The notes under the pieces are model-generated. The model ran no database searches and was not told the origin of the DNA. It saw only the letters and a program-made list of their open reading frames with translations. A stretch of 33,809 bases of DNA from the NCBI GenBank assembly GCA_009840945.1, contig VXMU01000136.1, forward strand, positions 1 to 33,809, in the 5' to 3' direction. Shown here in pieces: positions 8,004-14,289 of this stretch; positions within the stretch are counted from its first letter, which is position 1, and each line of letters opens with the position of its first letter. A program made the position numbers and the translations under genes. Origin of the DNA: Chloroflexota bacterium. Its GTDB lineage: Bacteria; Chloroflexota; Dehalococcoidia; UBA2979.

Positions 8004-8843
8004 CTACTCCAGCGTGAGCGGGGTGTCCTCGCGGTTCGCCCACTCGCCCATCGAGCCGTCGTAGTTGCGGGTGCGCTCATTGCCGAGCATGCGCAGGACG
8101 AAGGCCGCGAACGCGGCCCGGATGCCGCCCTGTCAGTAGGTGACGGTCGCGGCCTCCGGGTCGATCCCCGCGCCCTCGATCAGCGCCCGGATCTCGTCGA
8201 GGGGCCGGAAGCGGCGCGAGGGCGGACCCTGCATGAGCCGCAGCCATTCGAGGTGCTTCGCGCCGGGCACGTGGCCGGCACGGTCGTTGCCGCGGTCGTT
8301 GGAGCCGTCCCACTCGCCATCGGAGCGCGTGTCCCAGATCTGCGGCGCGTCGGGCGCGTCCGGCCCCGCCTCGACGATCGCGAGCAGCTCGTCCACGGTG
8401 CAGTGCGCGCCGCGGTCGACGCGCGCCTCGAACGTTGCGGCCTCGGGCCGTGCGGGCGCGGAGGTCAGCGGGCGGCCTTCGTCCAGCCAGGCGTTGAGCC
8501 CGCCGTCGACGACGCGCACGTCGCGGTGGCCGAAGTGCTCGAACACCCACCACACCCGCGCGGCGTGCAGCGAGGCGTTGTCGTCGTAGATCACGACGGG
8601 GGTGTCGTTGGAGATGCCCAGCCGGCCCGCCAGCGACTCGAACTCCGGCGCGGTCATGACCAGCCGCGTCTGCTCGCGGCCCTTGAGGTACGGGTGCGGC
8701 AGCCCCACCGCGCCCGGGATGTGGGCGCGCCGGTACGCGACCGCCTCACCGGCGTCGATGAGCGCGAACTCCGAACCGACGCCATCGAGGTGGTCGGCCA
8801 GCCAATCCGTGGTCGTGAGCAACTCGGACTGAGCGGTCGTCAT
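8004..8843 (-). CDS. Two-domain rhodanese sulfurtransferase, candidate selenoprotein (in-frame TGA at the catalytic Cys)
   Basis: The N-terminal rhodanese domain (about 10-130) is of the inactive type, with VVIYDDNASLHAAR where a catalytic loop would be. The C-terminal domain (about 145-279) runs through DTRSDGEWDG, GHVPGAKHLEW and ATVTY, then an in-frame TGA (8135-8133), then QGGIRAAFAAFVLRMLG, RNYDGSMGEW and a TAG at 8004. Homologous thiosulfate sulfurtransferases have the catalytic Cys right after VTY, so TGA occupies exactly the active-site codon (residue 237 of 279). The 42 residues after it keep family features, so this is not a random stop. Either TGA is decoded as selenocysteine, or a TGC has mutated to TGA. 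The ATG is preceded by GGGGAGG. TGA is a normal stop elsewhere in the window. No selenocysteine machinery is visible here. Confidence 0.75.
8094..8132 (-). promoter_or_regulatory. SECIS-like hairpin just after the in-frame TGA
   Basis: Immediately 3' of the TGA the mRNA can form a long hairpin. The lower stem CAGGGCG/CGTCCTG has 7 pairs including one G-U. An asymmetric internal loop follows (6 nt versus 1), then an upper stem GGGCCGC/GCGGCCT of 7 pairs including one G-U, and a four-base apical loop GTTC. The loop starts 20 nt after TGA and begins with G, within the published bacterial SECIS pattern (small apical loop with an early G, about 16-37 nt from UGA). GC-rich coding DNA folds easily, so this alone is only moderate evidence. 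Confidence 0.5.
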
Positions 8844-8882
8844 GGTCGCCTCCCCATCGCGCCGTGCTCCGCGTCGGGGGCG

Positions 8883-8903
8883 ATCATACGCGCACCGGTG
8901 CGC
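8883..8903 (-). promoter_or_regulatory. Candidate sulfurtransferase promoter with a palindromic operator
   Basis: On the minus strand, TATGAT (8883-8888) is a 5/6 match to a -10 hexamer, 39 bp upstream of the sulfurtransferase ATG. Just upstream of it, inside the spacer to a poor -35 (CCGACG), lies a perfect 14-bp palindrome, GCGCACCGGTGCGC (8890-8903). This position suits a dimeric repressor that blocks polymerase. The regulator is unknown. The divergent gene at 8984 could share the site. Confidence 0.5.
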
Positions 8904-8983
8904 AGCGTCGGGCCGCCTGCGCGGTGCGTCGAGTTGGAACGCCGCGCCGCGCGGTAGCATGGCGACGCTTGAGGAGGCGACCC

Positions 8984-9819
8984 GTGCGCATCGGCATCTC
9001 GCTCCCCGTGCGGGAGCTCCACAACGACATGGCGGCCGCGACTTCGCGCGGACCGCCGACGACCTCGGCTTCACGCACCTGCGCGTCCCGGAGCTGCTGA
9101 TCCGCCTCGGCAGCGGCGAGCTGCACGAGTCGCTCACGCTGCTGAGCTGGGTCGCCGCGCACACCACGAGCATCGAGCTCGTCCCCTCGGTCATCATCCT
9201 GCCCGCCCGCCAGACCGTGATGGTGGCGAAGCAGGCCGCGACCATCGATGTGCTCAGCGGCGGCCGGCTCCGCCTCGGCGTCGGCGTCGGCGGGAACGCC
9301 GAGGAGTACACGGCGCTCGGCCAGGACTTCCACACGCGCGGGCGCCGCTGCGAGGAGCAGCTCGAGCTGCTGCGGCTGCTGTGGACGCGGGAGTCCGTGG
9401 ACTTCGAGGGCCGCTGGGACCGCGTCGAGGGCGCGGGCATCAGTCCGCTGCCGGTGCAGCGCCCCATCCCTGTCTGGATCGGGCCGGGGGGCGGCGCGCC
9501 GCTCGCCGACCGCATGGCCCGGCGCATCGGCCGGCTCGCCGACGGCTGGTTCGCAATCGTCCCGCGCGAGCACGTCGCCCCGACGCAGGAAGTCATCGCG
9601 CGCCATGCCGAGGAGGCAGACCGCGACCCGTCATCGATCGGCGTCGAAGGCGCCGTGCCCGTGGCCGGCCGGGAGCCCTCGGAGTGGCTTGCAGATGTCG
9701 GCGCGTGGGAGTCGGCGGGCGCGACGCACCTCTGTCTGCGCACGCTGGGCGCGGACCTCGACGCGTCTGGGCACCTCGCCGCCATGCGCGCGGCGCGCGA
9801 GGTGCTGGACTCGCGGTAG
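8984..9819 (+). CDS. Luciferase-like (LLM-class, probably F420-dependent) oxidoreductase with an apparent 1-nt frameshift
   Basis: A TIM-barrel flavin/F420 oxidoreductase of the bacterial luciferase superfamily. The N-terminus MRIGISLPVREL starts at GTG 8984, 6 bp after a perfect GAGGAGG. After about 18 codons the frame must change near 9035-9038. Downstream, the other frame continues with RDFARTADDLGFTHLRVPE, the LSGGRLRLGVGVGG motif typical of the family, PVWIGPGGG and the C-terminal ATHLCLR. One missing base (GCCCGCGAC read as GCCGCGAC) would restore a protein of about 278 residues with the normal order. An automatic caller would instead start at ATG 8959 in the second frame and give a wrong N-terminus. 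It may be a sequencing error or a recent mutation. The substrate is unknown. Confidence 0.8.
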
Positions 9820-9831
9820 GTCTGGGTCTGG

Positions 9832-10249
9832 CCCCCTCTCCCGCGCCGCGGGAGAGGGTTGGGTGAGGGTCCGGGCAGGTTCCTCGACGCCTCCGCGCCT
9901 CGTGTTGGGTCAGGCGAGGCCGGACCCGCTCACCCTCGCCCTCTCCCCCGCAGACGGGGGCGAGGGGATCGGAAGTCCGGCTCCCTCTCCCTCTGGGAGC
10001 GGGCGGGCTCCTCGATGCCTCTGCGCCACATGTTGGGCCAGGCGAGGCCGGACCCCCTCACCCTAGCCCTCTCCCCCTCAGACGGGGGCGAGGCGATCGG
10101 AAGTCCGGCTCCCTCTCCCTCTCTGGGAGCGGGCGGGGTGAGGGTCCGGGCGGGCTCCTCGATGCCTCCGCGCCACATGCTGCGTCAGGCGAGGCCGGAC
10201 CCCCTCACCCTCACCCTCTCCCCCGCAGACGGGGGCGAGGGGATCAGAC
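9832..10249 (+). repeat. Dispersed GC-rich repeat, tandem cluster of three copies (forward)
   Basis: Three head-to-tail units fill the whole gap between two convergent genes. The marker CAGGCGAGGCCGGAC occurs at 9911, 10039 and 10186, giving periods of 128 and 147 bp; the longer one keeps a GGTGAGGGTCCGGGC module missing from the middle unit. Each unit ends in the hairpin core CTCCCCCG (or CTCCCCCT), loop CAGA or similar, CGGGGG, then GATCRGA. The first unit begins with a perfect 11-bp hairpin (arms 9834-9844 and 9848-9858) that could also act as a transcription barrier after the oxidoreductase. No gene is credible here. Confidence 0.85.
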
Positions 10250-11520
10250 TACGGGCCGCGGCCAGCGAAGATGGCCGGTGGGAACGCGGGCTCGACGTCG
10301 TCGGGGATGCCTTCGCGGATCGCACGCTCCACGGTCTCGGCGGCAACGTCGATCTCGGCCTGCGTGTTGAAGGCGTGCAGTGAGAGCCGGACGCTGTTGA
10401 ACTCCGCGACCGAGCGGCACACGACCTTCGCCTCCGCCTGCAGGAACGCGTTCACGTCGGCTGCCGGCAGGTCGTCTACGACGAAGCAGAAGAGCCCCGT
10501 CCGCGTCGAGTCGTGGCGAGGGCTCACCACGCTCACACCCTCGATGCGCCCGAAGCGCTGCTCCGCGTAGCGGTTGAGGTCGCGCGCCCGCGCGAGCACC
10601 GCCTCGGGGCCGGAGTCGAGGAACCACTCGGCGGCCTCGAGCGTGCCGGCGATGAGCGGCGTCGAGGTGGTCGTGAGCTCGTACTTCGTGATGCGGTCGC
10701 GCTCGGGCTCGAAGTTGCCCTCGAAGTCGTACGAGGCCGCCGAGCGGCCCGCCACCTTCATCGGCGCGACGAGCGGGATGAGGTCCTCGCGCACGTAGAG
10801 CGCGCCGAGGCCGTCCGGGCCGCACAGCCACTTGTGCGAAGGGATCGCGTAGAAGTCGACGTTCGTCTCGCGCACGTCGATGGGGATGTGGCCCGCTGTC
10901 TGCGCGCCGTCGACGACCACGTAGCCGCCTCGGCGGTGCGTCTCCTCGACGAGCGCCTTGAGCGGGAGCAGCTGGCCGGTCGAGTAGGAGATCTCGGAGA
11001 CGATGACGAGCTTGATGTTGCCGCTCGCCGCGTCCATCGAGGAGACGAACGACTCCATCGCCTGACCGGGCGAGTCCTGCGCGTCGATGGGGACGATGGC
11101 CACCTCGCAGCCGGTGCGCTCGCGCAGGTAGTAGGCGGGGACGATGCCGGAGCCGTGCTCGACATCGGTGGTGACGATGCTGTCCGCCGAGGTCACCTCG
11201 AGGCCGTTGGTGATGATGTTGATGCCCTCGGTGGTGTTGCCGGTGATGGCGATCTCGTCCGGCGAGGCGCCGCCGACGAGGCGGCCCATGGTCTCGCGGT
11301 ACTGCGCGGCCACCTCGAAGCGGTCGTCGAGCGCGTAGCGCGTGGTGGAGCCGTGCATGAGCTCGAGGTCGAGGCGCTCCTGGACGGCCGCGTGGGTGGC
11401 GCGGCGCTTGGGGCCGGAGAAGCCGGAGTTCATGTAGGCGTACTGGGTGAGCGCGGGCGTGTCGTCACGCCACGCCTGCCAGCGCTCGTTGCCCATGCCG
11501 TCGCCGCTGTCCTGCGTCAT
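10249..11520 (-). CDS. Class V (cysteine desulfurase/isopenicillin-N epimerase-like) PLP-dependent aminotransferase
   Basis: Fold-type I PLP enzyme of 423 residues. The N-terminus has YMNSGFSGP (29-37), the substrate-end signature of the family. GNTTEGIN (94-101) binds phosphate, EHGSGIVP (121-128) stacks on the cofactor, VVDGAQTAGHIPID (202-215) supplies Asp204 for the pyridine nitrogen, and SHKWLCGPDG (228-237) contains the Schiff-base Lys230. The closest named relatives are isopenicillin-N epimerase and group II cysteine desulfurases, but no SufU/SufE partner or desulfurase Cys loop is evident, so the substrate stays open. The ATG is preceded by a very strong GGAGGAGGGAAG. It is divergent from mgtE (104 bp), and its stop touches the repeat cluster. 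Confidence 0.9.
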   Translation of the reverse strand: MTQDSGDGMGNERWQAWRDDTPALTQYAYMNSGFSGPKRRATHAAVQERLDLELMHGSTTRYALDDRFEVAAQYRETMGRLVGGASPDEIAITGNTTEGINIITNGLEVTSADSIVTTDVEHGSGIVPAYYLRERTGCEVAIVPIDAQDSPGQAMESFVSSMDAASGNIKLVIVSEISYSTGQLLPLKALVEETHRRGGYVVVDGAQTAGHIPIDVRETNVDFYAIPSHKWLCGPDGLGALYVREDLIPLVAPMKVAGRSAASYDFEGNFEPERDRITKYELTTTSTPLIAGTLEAAEWFLDSGPEAVLARARDLNRYAEQRFGRIEGVSVVSPRHDSTRTGLFCFVVDDLPAADVNAFLQAEAKVVCRSVAEFNSVRLSLHAFNTQAEIDVAAETVERAIREGIPDDVEPAFPPAIFAGRGP

Positions 11521-11624
11521 GCGCTTCCCTCCTCCGGGCTGCCGTGCGAGTCTACCGCGCACCCTCGATTCAATCCCGCGTGCGCGGCGGCCACCGTCCC
11601 CGGCCCGCGGGCGGAGCACGACCC

Positions 11625-13040
11625 ATGAGCAACGGCACACCCGACACGCCGACGCTGGACCCGGAAGGCGGCGCGCCCGTCGCGATCTCGCTGGACGAGG
11701 TCTCGGAGATCGCCAGCGAGGTCCGCGACCTCATCGAGGCGGGCGAGGAGCACTCCGCGTGGGAGCGCATCCGCCTACTGCACCCGGCGGACATCGGGAT
11801 CATCGTCGCCGGCCTGCCGAGCACGAGCCGCGACGCGATGCTGCGCGTGATGACGCCGGAGACCGTGGCGTGGATGCTGCGCCAGATGAACCCCGTCGAG
11901 GCGGGGCGCGTCGGCGCCCGCCTCGGCTCCCGCGTGCTGACGCCGGTGCTCCAGCAACTCCGCCCGCAGCAGGCGCTCGACACGCTGCTGCGGCTGCCGA
12001 CCCGGACGGCGCGCGAACTCACCGCGATCCTCCCGAGACACGTCGAGGAGACGCCGCAACTCGAGCACGAGCCGGACACGGCCGGCTCGCTCATGGCAGG
12101 CCGGTTCCCGGCGGTGGCGCTCGACGACGGCGCCGAGGCGGCTCGGGCGAGCCTGCGCGCGCTCGACGAGGACCGGCGACGCTTCACGCACGTCTTCGTG
12201 GTGGACGGGGAGCGCCTCGCCGGCCAGATCGCGATGGTCGACCTCGCGCTCGCCGAGCCGGATGCGACGGTCGTGCAGCTCGCCACGCCCGTCATCGCGA
12301 CCGTGACCGTCGAGACGCCCGCCGAGGAGTGCTCACGGCTCCAGCGCCACTACAACCTCACGCAGCTCCCCGTGGTGGACGACGAACAGCGCCTCGTCGG
12401 CGTGGTCGCGGCCGAGTCGCTGCTGAGCGCGACGGTCGAGCAGGACACGCAGCAGATGCTGCGCGTGGCGAGCGTGAGCGGCGAGGCCGTCGGTGGCCCG
12501 CTCGCGGCGTCGATCCGGACGCGGCTGCCGTGGCTCACCGTGAACCTCGGCACGACGTTCCTCGCGGCGGCGACGATCGCACTGTTCGAGTCCACGCTCA
12601 CGCAGGTGGTCGTGCTCGCCGCCTTCCTGCCGGTCGTGGCCGGGCAGGGCGGCATCGGAGGGACACAGACGCTCACGCTGATCGTCAGGTCCATCGCGCT
12701 GGGCGAACTCGTCGGCGTGCGGGCGCGGCAGCTCCTGGTGCGCGAGGCGGTGCTGGGGCTCGTGCACGGCATCTGGCTCGGTGTGCTCGTCGCCGTGATC
12801 GCGGTCGCGTGGCAAGGGAACCCGGGGTTGGGGCTCGTGCTCGGGATTGCGATGCTGGGCAACATGGTCATCGCCGGGACGGTCGGCGCCGCCGTGCCAC
12901 TCGCGCTGCGGCGCATCGGCGTCGACCCCGCGGTAGCCTCGGCCGTGATCGTCACGACCGCCACGGACGTGTTGGGGTTCCGGCTCTACCTCGCCCGCGC
13001 CCGCGCGGTCTTCTACCTCCGCGGTTCGCGCGCGTGGTAA
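11625..13040 (+). CDS. mgtE: Magnesium transporter MgtE
   Basis: Magnesium-gated Mg2+ channel of 471 residues in the inner membrane. The domains are an N-terminal superhelical MgtE_N (about 45-150), a CBS pair (about 155-212 and 218-275) that senses cytosolic Mg2+, a connecting helix, and five membrane segments (about 305-465). The signature AGQGGIGGTQ with an Arg seven residues on (339-355) corresponds to the first pore helix of the family. TTATDVLGF (444-452) carries the conserved Asp448 of the selectivity site. The start ATG has only a weak GGAG 10 bp upstream, but the N-terminal domain begins as expected. No magnesium riboswitch is visible in the 104-bp upstream gap. Confidence 0.94.
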   Translation: MSNGTPDTPTLDPEGGAPVAISLDEVSEIASEVRDLIEAGEEHSAWERIRLLHPADIGIIVAGLPSTSRDAMLRVMTPETVAWMLRQMNPVEAGRVGARLGSRVLTPVLQQLRPQQALDTLLRLPTRTARELTAILPRHVEETPQLEHEPDTAGSLMAGRFPAVALDDGAEAARASLRALDEDRRRFTHVFVVDGERLAGQIAMVDLALAEPDATVVQLATPVIATVTVETPAEECSRLQRHYNLTQLPVVDDEQRLVGVVAAESLLSATVEQDTQQMLRVASVSGEAVGGPLAASIRTRLPWLTVNLGTTFLAAATIALFESTLTQVVVLAAFLPVVAGQGGIGGTQTLTLIVRSIALGELVGVRARQLLVREAVLGLVHGIWLGVLVAVIAVAWQGNPGLGLVLGIAMLGNMVIAGTVGAAVPLALRRIGVDPAVASAVIVTTATDVLGFRLYLARARAVFYLRGSRAW

Positions 13041-13092: not shown

Positions 13093-14289
13093 TTACCGCT
13101 GCGAACCCACGTTCTCGGGGCGGTCGTACGGGGTGTACGAGCCCTCGTACGGGTCCTCGCCGCCGTCGAGCTTCGCCGTCTCCGCTGCCCACCTCGACGG
13201 GTCGAGGTCGCGCCCGGCCAGCTCCGGGCCGTCGGCGGCGTAGCGGTGGGCGCGGAACATCGAGGGCGTCTTGCCGAAGCGGCCGGCGGGCATGAAGCCC
13301 GTGACGTACTCCCAGACCGTCTCGCCCTCGGGCGTCACCTCGAAGATGCGGCCCGTGGCGCCCTCGGTGATGAGGGTGTTGCCGTTGGGCTGGCGGTCGG
13401 CGGCGCTGGTCATGAAGCTGATGAACGCCAGCAGCACCTCCGCCTGGTACTGCCAGACGATCTCCTCGGTCTCGGGGTCCACCTCGAGGATGCGCGAGTG
13501 CCCGGGGCCGCCGCGGCGGTGCGAGCCGTTGTCGAAGAGCAGCACGTTGCCGCTCTCCAGCATCGTGAAGTGGTGCTGGTGCGAGGTGACGCCGGGCCCC
13601 CAGCGCCACTCGATGTCCCCGCTGTCGGGGTTGACGATCATCACGGTGTCGGTCTGGCGCATGCTCACCAGCCAGCGGCCGTCTGGCGCGACGGAAACCG
13701 AGTTAGCGTGCGTCCACTCGCGACGCCGCTCGAGCGGGCAGAGCACGTCGAGCCGATAGTCGAAGTGCTCCCAGGACTTCCACTCGCGCACCGTCTCGCC
13801 GTCGGGCGAGATCTCGCGCACGAGGTCGCCGACCATCGCGTCGGGGTCGTTCGCGCCCTGGAAGCCGCCGCGCACCTGGCGGCGGATCTCGTCGGGCAGC
13901 AGCTCGAAGTGCAGGATCACGGTGTTGCCGTTGTCGAGGCGCACGAAGTCGTGGTGCTGCTGGTCGTTGCGGTACTCCCAGACGGTGTTGCCGTCCCAGT
14001 CCTGCTCGATCAGCGCGTGCGCGTGACCGCCGATGACCCCCACGGGGCTCACGTCGGCGGCCTCCATGAAGTGCACGGGGTTCACCGTGTGGAAGAGCAC
14101 GTTGCCGCCCGGCAGGAGCTTCGCATACTGCACGCCCTCGTCGTGCACCCAGCGGTGGACGACGCGGCCCTCGAGGTCGAGCAGCGTGGCGTGGTAGCCC
14201 TCGACGTTCGAGAACAGCGTGTAGCCGTCGTGCGACTGATCGGGGTCGCGGTAGACGAGTCCGGACGGTCGGTTACGCGTCCATGCCAT
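13093..14289 (-). CDS. Arylsulfotransferase (ASST)-like beta-propeller protein
   Basis: The 398-residue protein is built from repeated propeller blades with recurrent motifs such as LDLEGRVVHRW, DWDGNTVWEY, SPDGETVREW, DPETEEIVWQY and TPEGETVWEY. These alternate with PGGNVLFH, DNGNTVIL, ESGNVLLFD and PNGNTLIT. This alternation is characteristic of the ASST family, whose enzymes transfer sulfate between phenols using a catalytic His. Histidines in HAHAL, QQHHDF, THANSV and HQHHF are candidates. No signal peptide is seen, unlike periplasmic ASST, so the location is probably cytosolic and the activity unproven. The ATG has GGGAGGG upstream. It lies 69 bp after nuoN on the same strand and may be read from the same transcript. 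Confidence 0.82.
   Translation of the reverse strand: MAWTRNRPSGLVYRDPDQSHDGYTLFSNVEGYHATLLDLEGRVVHRWVHDEGVQYAKLLPGGNVLFHTVNPVHFMEAADVSPVGVIGGHAHALIEQDWDGNTVWEYRNDQQHHDFVRLDNGNTVILHFELLPDEIRRQVRGGFQGANDPDAMVGDLVREISPDGETVREWKSWEHFDYRLDVLCPLERRREWTHANSVSVAPDGRWLVSMRQTDTVMIVNPDSGDIEWRWGPGVTSHQHHFTMLESGNVLLFDNGSHRRGGPGHSRILEVDPETEEIVWQYQAEVLLAFISFMTSAADRQPNGNTLITEGATGRIFEVTPEGETVWEYVTGFMPAGRFGKTPSMFRAHRYAADGPELAGRDLDPSRWAAETAKLDGGEDPYEGSYTPYDRPENVGSQR

Follow-up and report, generated by a model that had tools for sequence, protein, structure and literature searches.

A two-domain rhodanese with a putative catalytic selenocysteine in a Dehalococcoidia genome

The window analysed here, a contig of 33,809 nucleotides from a Chloroflexota bacterium (Dehalococcoidia, UBA2979), carries a rhodanese gene whose catalytic codon, number 237, is an in-frame UGA that is very likely decoded as selenocysteine (Sec), a reading to which we assign a probability of roughly 95%. 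An earlier note on this DNA, made from the letters alone, had already proposed a selenoprotein. The proposal is supported by the alternation of codon 237 with Cys codons among relatives, by the Sec machinery of the genome and by a covarying SECIS hairpin, the last of which was not part of that note. The coordinates of the gene, its elements and the related genes are collected in Table 1.

Table 1. Positions of the putative selenocysteine rhodanese gene, its elements, its neighbours and its paralogues (window coordinates unless a contig is named).
Feature	Position	Strand	Remarks
Putative selenocysteine rhodanese gene	8004..8843	minus	two-domain sulfurtransferase, 279 codons + TAG
N-terminal rhodanese domain	~residues 11-121 of the Sec rhodanese
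Catalytic C-terminal rhodanese domain	~residues 150-277 of the Sec rhodanese
In-frame TGA, codon 237, read as probable selenocysteine	8133..8135	minus	catalytic position
Predicted SECIS hairpin	8102..8119	minus	7-bp stem GGGCCGC/GCGGCCT, apical loop GTTC (8109-8112), 20 nt after TGA
Luciferase-like (F420-type) monooxygenase gene	8842..9819	plus	divergent neighbour of the Sec rhodanese
Arylsulfotransferase-like (ASST) gene	13093..14289	minus	~4 kb from the Sec rhodanese
Cys rhodanese paralogues (L092, L093)	G000:C114:46341-47153 and G000:C38:6892-7695

On the minus strand, the frame from 8843 to 8004 begins with ATG and holds a single in-frame TGA (8135-8133), after which 42 more codons lead to a TAG, as the earlier note had described. 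The translation around codon 237 reads ...EAATVTY-TGA-QGGIRAAFAAF...RNYDGSMGEWANREDTPLTLE and is closed by this stop. A standard gene caller would return a protein ending after 236 residues, which is the truncation that had been foreseen. Two rhodanese domains are recognised in the full-length product (Pfam, E 8e-33), and when solved rhodaneses are aligned with it, their catalytic Cys (VVYC in 1uar) stands opposite codon 237, in agreement with the original observation that the TGA falls exactly on this residue in a frame open on both sides. Between two copies from the same genus, the codons 3' of the TGA are conserved, with 5 nucleotide and 0 amino-acid differences over 40 codons. In an AlphaFold model made from 37 relatives (mean pLDDT 96.1, pTM 0.93), residue 237 lies in the rhodanese active-site loop, between strand 233-236, which it directly follows, and helix 241-252, and the closest solved fold is that of the Thermus rhodanese 1uar (TM 0.89/0.90). 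Asp87 is invariant and occupies the site of the N-terminal domain that corresponds to catalytic position 237. The same genome encodes two further two-domain rhodanese paralogues, both with Cys and 36-37% identical to the Sec form.

The protein displays the features that define TST/MST sulfurtransferases, namely a tandem rhodanese fold, an N-terminal domain with Asp and the nucleophile position in the C-terminal domain. It likewise shows those of the Sec rhodaneses of COG2897/cd01449: two rhodanese domains, the Sec site in the second of them, and U-Q-G-G as a case of the UxxG motif. The TsoB model NF045694 has a cut-off of 805, and the protein scored 17.7 bits. Among relatives from named genomes, a luciferase-like monooxygenase gene lies close upstream of the rhodanese in 17 TGA loci (divergent in about 10), and an ASST-like gene lies beside the rhodanese in 15 TGA loci, mostly directly downstream on the same strand; both kinds of neighbour suggest a link to organosulfur metabolism without defining the substrate. 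In the window, the stretch 8960-9060 of the monooxygenase gene (plus strand) shows a 4-base gap near 9035 relative to the closest relative, L102, so that its first codons lie in another frame; the gap is either an assembly error or a real lesion. Also near the rhodanese, at 10249-11640 on the minus strand, is a gene for a SufS-like cysteine desulfurase or aminotransferase with weak matches to selenocysteine lyase and EgtE models.

From the fold and the position of residue 237, sulfur transfer is probably the main reaction of the enzyme. It is less likely, though worth weighing, that Sec is inserted into a protein that works mainly in thiol/peroxide redox chemistry or in selenium handling (e.g. 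reducing or carrying Se) rather than as a sulfurtransferase. The active loop, UQGGIR, departs from the textbook loop consensus of both TST and MST, the score against the 3-mercaptopyruvate sulfurtransferase equivalog NF008557 is 117.1 bits at a cut-off of 250, and the neighbouring monooxygenase and ASST-like genes do not point to one particular substrate. Moreover, homology to thiol oxidoreductases is the rule among predicted Sec proteins (PMC9312934). Against such a role stand the agreement with TST/MST in fold, in two-domain arrangement and in catalytic position, and the loop of the Cys forms, which is nearly identical (CQGGIR, CQAGIR) and thereby suggests one chemistry for Sec and Cys forms alike.

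The homologue set comprised 162 loci, partly redundant, from a search of 149 related genomes supplemented by a single scan of named genomes; removal of duplicates left 143 sequences, 88 with Sec and 55 with Cys. The codon homologous to 237 is TGA in 97 of the 162 loci, TGC in 59 and TGT in 6, with no other codon present, in counts that treat the loci as independent and that, like the p-values given here, are inflated by kinship among relatives that are mostly metagenome-assembled genomes (MAGs). Since the same homologous codon is TGA in so many loci and a Cys codon in the remaining 65, its occurrence at codon 237 is not due to chance; such a pairing of Cys and TGA at one conserved redox-active position is a hallmark by which bacterial selenoproteins are recognised. 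The earlier note had named this alternation as a check and scattered stops in relatives as evidence against its reading: the former was found and the latter were not seen, an additional in-frame stop being present in only one homologous locus, L178. No in-frame TGA was seen at non-Cys positions of the aligned rhodaneses. The nearest relative, Chloroflexi MAG SB0666_bin_12, is a separate MAG that is 95% identical and has the same TGA, and the named relatives are mostly Dehalococcoidia or SAR202 MAGs, which points to Dehalococcoidia as the most likely host lineage. Four MAGs labelled Binatia or Deltaproteobacteria (L122, L124, L126 and L149) also carry the TGA rhodanese; their sequences nest among those of Dehalococcoidia in the tree, by either gene transfer or misbinning. 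A plasmid search returned only distant rhodaneses of less than 60% identity.

The 45 nt following the TGA fold at -24.6 kcal/mol, and the hairpin of the window satisfies all constraints of the bSECIS model quoted in PMC13188914. These constraints are satisfied by 77 of 79 distinct TGA sequences vs 6 of 43 Cys sequences (p 1.5e-22). Three main positions of the hairpin loop after the TGA can be distinguished: GGC at 17 nt (n=61), GTTC-like at 20 nt (n=6) and GTN at 25 nt (n=9), of which the 20-nt class represents the clade of the window. Within this clade, all seven pairs are kept in the 6 TGA relatives, all 42 pair cells being standard (100% paired), and two pairs show compensatory changes at synonymous third positions (C-G/G-C and C-G/G-C/A-U); the neighbouring Cys forms have 66% of their stem cells paired. 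In the main class, both partners have changed in three pairs, and pairing is kept in 97% of cells. The covariation count of the Cys control is above zero, partly owing to the kinship of those sequences, so the contrast rests mainly on the paired percentages (66 vs 100) and the bSECIS count. Codon choice shows a further difference: the peptide R-A-A-H is spelled CGT-GCG-GCG-CAC in 59 of 59 TGA forms (one ends in CAT), and none of the 21 Cys forms that encode R-A-A-H starts with CGT-GCG-GCG. The energy z-score is a modest signal when taken alone (mean -0.89 in TGA forms vs -0.09 in Cys forms), and the case for a SECIS rests more on where the hairpin lies, on its loop and on covariation. An Rfam gathering search of the window gave no hits, a result that is uninformative for this SECIS.

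These observations bear on two further explanations of the TGA. According to the first, it is a true stop, marking either a decayed gene or a functional protein of 236 residues, which is what standard gene calling would deliver; this is very improbable, as the frame 3' of the TGA shows conservation of both sequence and structure, the TGA is confined to one codon in 97 loci, the hairpin is linked to TGA forms, and a truncated protein would lack not only its catalytic residue but also the helix behind it and the final strand. According to the second, a TGC or TGT was misread as TGA during sequencing or assembly, a suspicion that a draft genome in 136 contigs and the frame-shifting 4-base gap in the neighbouring gene may raise. 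It becomes highly implausible in view of the same TGA in independent MAGs, single-cell genomes and chromosome-level assemblies, where it is nearly always accompanied by the SECIS hairpin.

A search for selA, selB, selC (tRNA-Sec) and selD, as suggested by the earlier note, recovered all four from the genome of the window: selA with 523 bits, selB with 296 bits, selD with 364.5 bits and tRNA-Sec with 73.7 bits and anticodon TCA. The genome thus holds the gene set for Sec synthesis and insertion that is expected of a bacterium with selenoproteins. A further hit above the tRNA-Sec cut-off (C58) is a tRNA-Ser according to ARAGORN. The selD gene, located at G000:C79:11233-12165 (L047), is itself a selenoprotein gene: a TGA stands at the position of its catalytic residue (SCGGU), and the hairpin GGCGCAG-GTT-CTGCGCC lies 33 nt downstream of this TGA. 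Across genomes, selA is present in 33 of 36 with the TGA form vs 61 of 113 without it (Fisher p 2e-5, genomes treated as independent), and the three TGA-form genomes in which selA was not detected (G051, G065 and G071) are 71-81% complete. Reassignment of TGA to Trp, Gly or Cys, or readthrough independent of Sec machinery, has precedent in other bacteria as far as reassignment is concerned and is extremely improbable here, because nuoM and nuoD of the window end in TGA as an ordinary stop, codon 237 alternates with Cys codons only, and complete Sec machinery and a SECIS are at hand.

If UGA 237 encodes Sec, its decoding would follow established bacterial Sec biology: SelD would supply selenophosphate, Ser-tRNA-Sec would be converted by SelA into Sec-tRNA-Sec, and SelB, docked on the hairpin, would bring the latter to UGA 237, where it would compete with release factor 2; the product would be a protein of 279 residues. 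More tentatively, Sec237 in the UQGGIR loop may use its selenolate to accept sulfane sulfur from a donor, and the resulting Se-S adduct may then pass this sulfur on to an acceptor thiol; the N-terminal domain, where Asp87 occupies the equivalent site, would be non-catalytic.

At least 10 changes between the Sec and Cys states are required on the tree of the 143 sequences, calculated with the codon-237 site masked. The window and its closest relative are placed among Cys forms, adjoining Sec forms whose hairpin lies at the same distance from the TGA; in this unrooted tree of moderate local support, retention of Sec in the window's clade appears to be the simpler reading. The sister sequences L035 and L051, from two genomes of one genus, differ in that one has TGA and the other TGC, which indicates a recent Sec/Cys switch.

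Two papers on deep-sea SAR202 bacteria treat rhodanese as a thiosulfate enzyme (PMC5864207, PMC9416657), and a word search of their text found no mention of selenium; a literature search combining SAR202 and selenoprotein found no paper in the library covered. As gene callers end the protein before its catalytic residue, studies of the sulfur cycle in these bacteria may miss or misread the Sec rhodanese. A broader proposal, offered tentatively, is that the Sec-dependent rhodanese might be a sulfur enzyme of major importance in Dehalococcoidia/SAR202-type bacteria that has so far been overlooked, with its luciferase-like monooxygenase and arylsulfotransferase-like neighbours linking it to organosulfur oxidation; on this view, the SECIS was rebuilt at 17, 20 and 25 nt after the same UGA during repeated exchange between Sec and Cys forms. 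The family offers many naturally matched Sec and Cys enzymes on which the contribution of selenium can be tested, and its SECIS elements, which occur at three distances from the same UGA, are material for testing how a SECIS moves.

With the known TST/MST enzymes (Thermus 1uar, Mycobacterium SseA 3hzu and bovine rhodanese), the window protein shares the full-length fold (TM ~0.9 to 1uar) and a catalytic site in the C-terminal domain; these enzymes differ in using Cys instead of Sec, and the usual TST/MST loops are not UQGGIR. The rhodanese/DsbD-fusion selenoprotein TsoB (NF045694) and the other Sec rhodaneses of PMC13188914 have a rhodanese domain and selenocysteine in common with it, in another architecture and with another Sec motif. 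The closest counterpart is the Sec rhodanese-related sulfurtransferase COG2897 (SseA)/cd01449, which was predicted in 2005 from Sargasso Sea DNA (3 sequences; PMC1088965) and in 2008 from GOS data (8 sequences; PMC2398784) and is listed as 'form 4', with the UxxG motif, in PMC13188914. Because of these predictions, the window gene belongs to a known predicted family, which is itself still a prediction. Shared features are the rhodanese type with Sec, the U-Q-G-G within UxxG, a bacterial SECIS directly 3' of the UGA and widespread Cys homologues; for the published members AACY01016424, MQG53192.1 and MCY3690685.1, the likeness is at the level of their published description. Whereas the earlier predictions came from anonymous metagenome reads, the window adds a host lineage (Dehalococcoidia/SAR202-type bacteria) together with complete Sec machinery in one genome, a covarying SECIS with three hairpin positions at one site, a history of repeated Sec/Cys switching, and recurrent neighbour genes.
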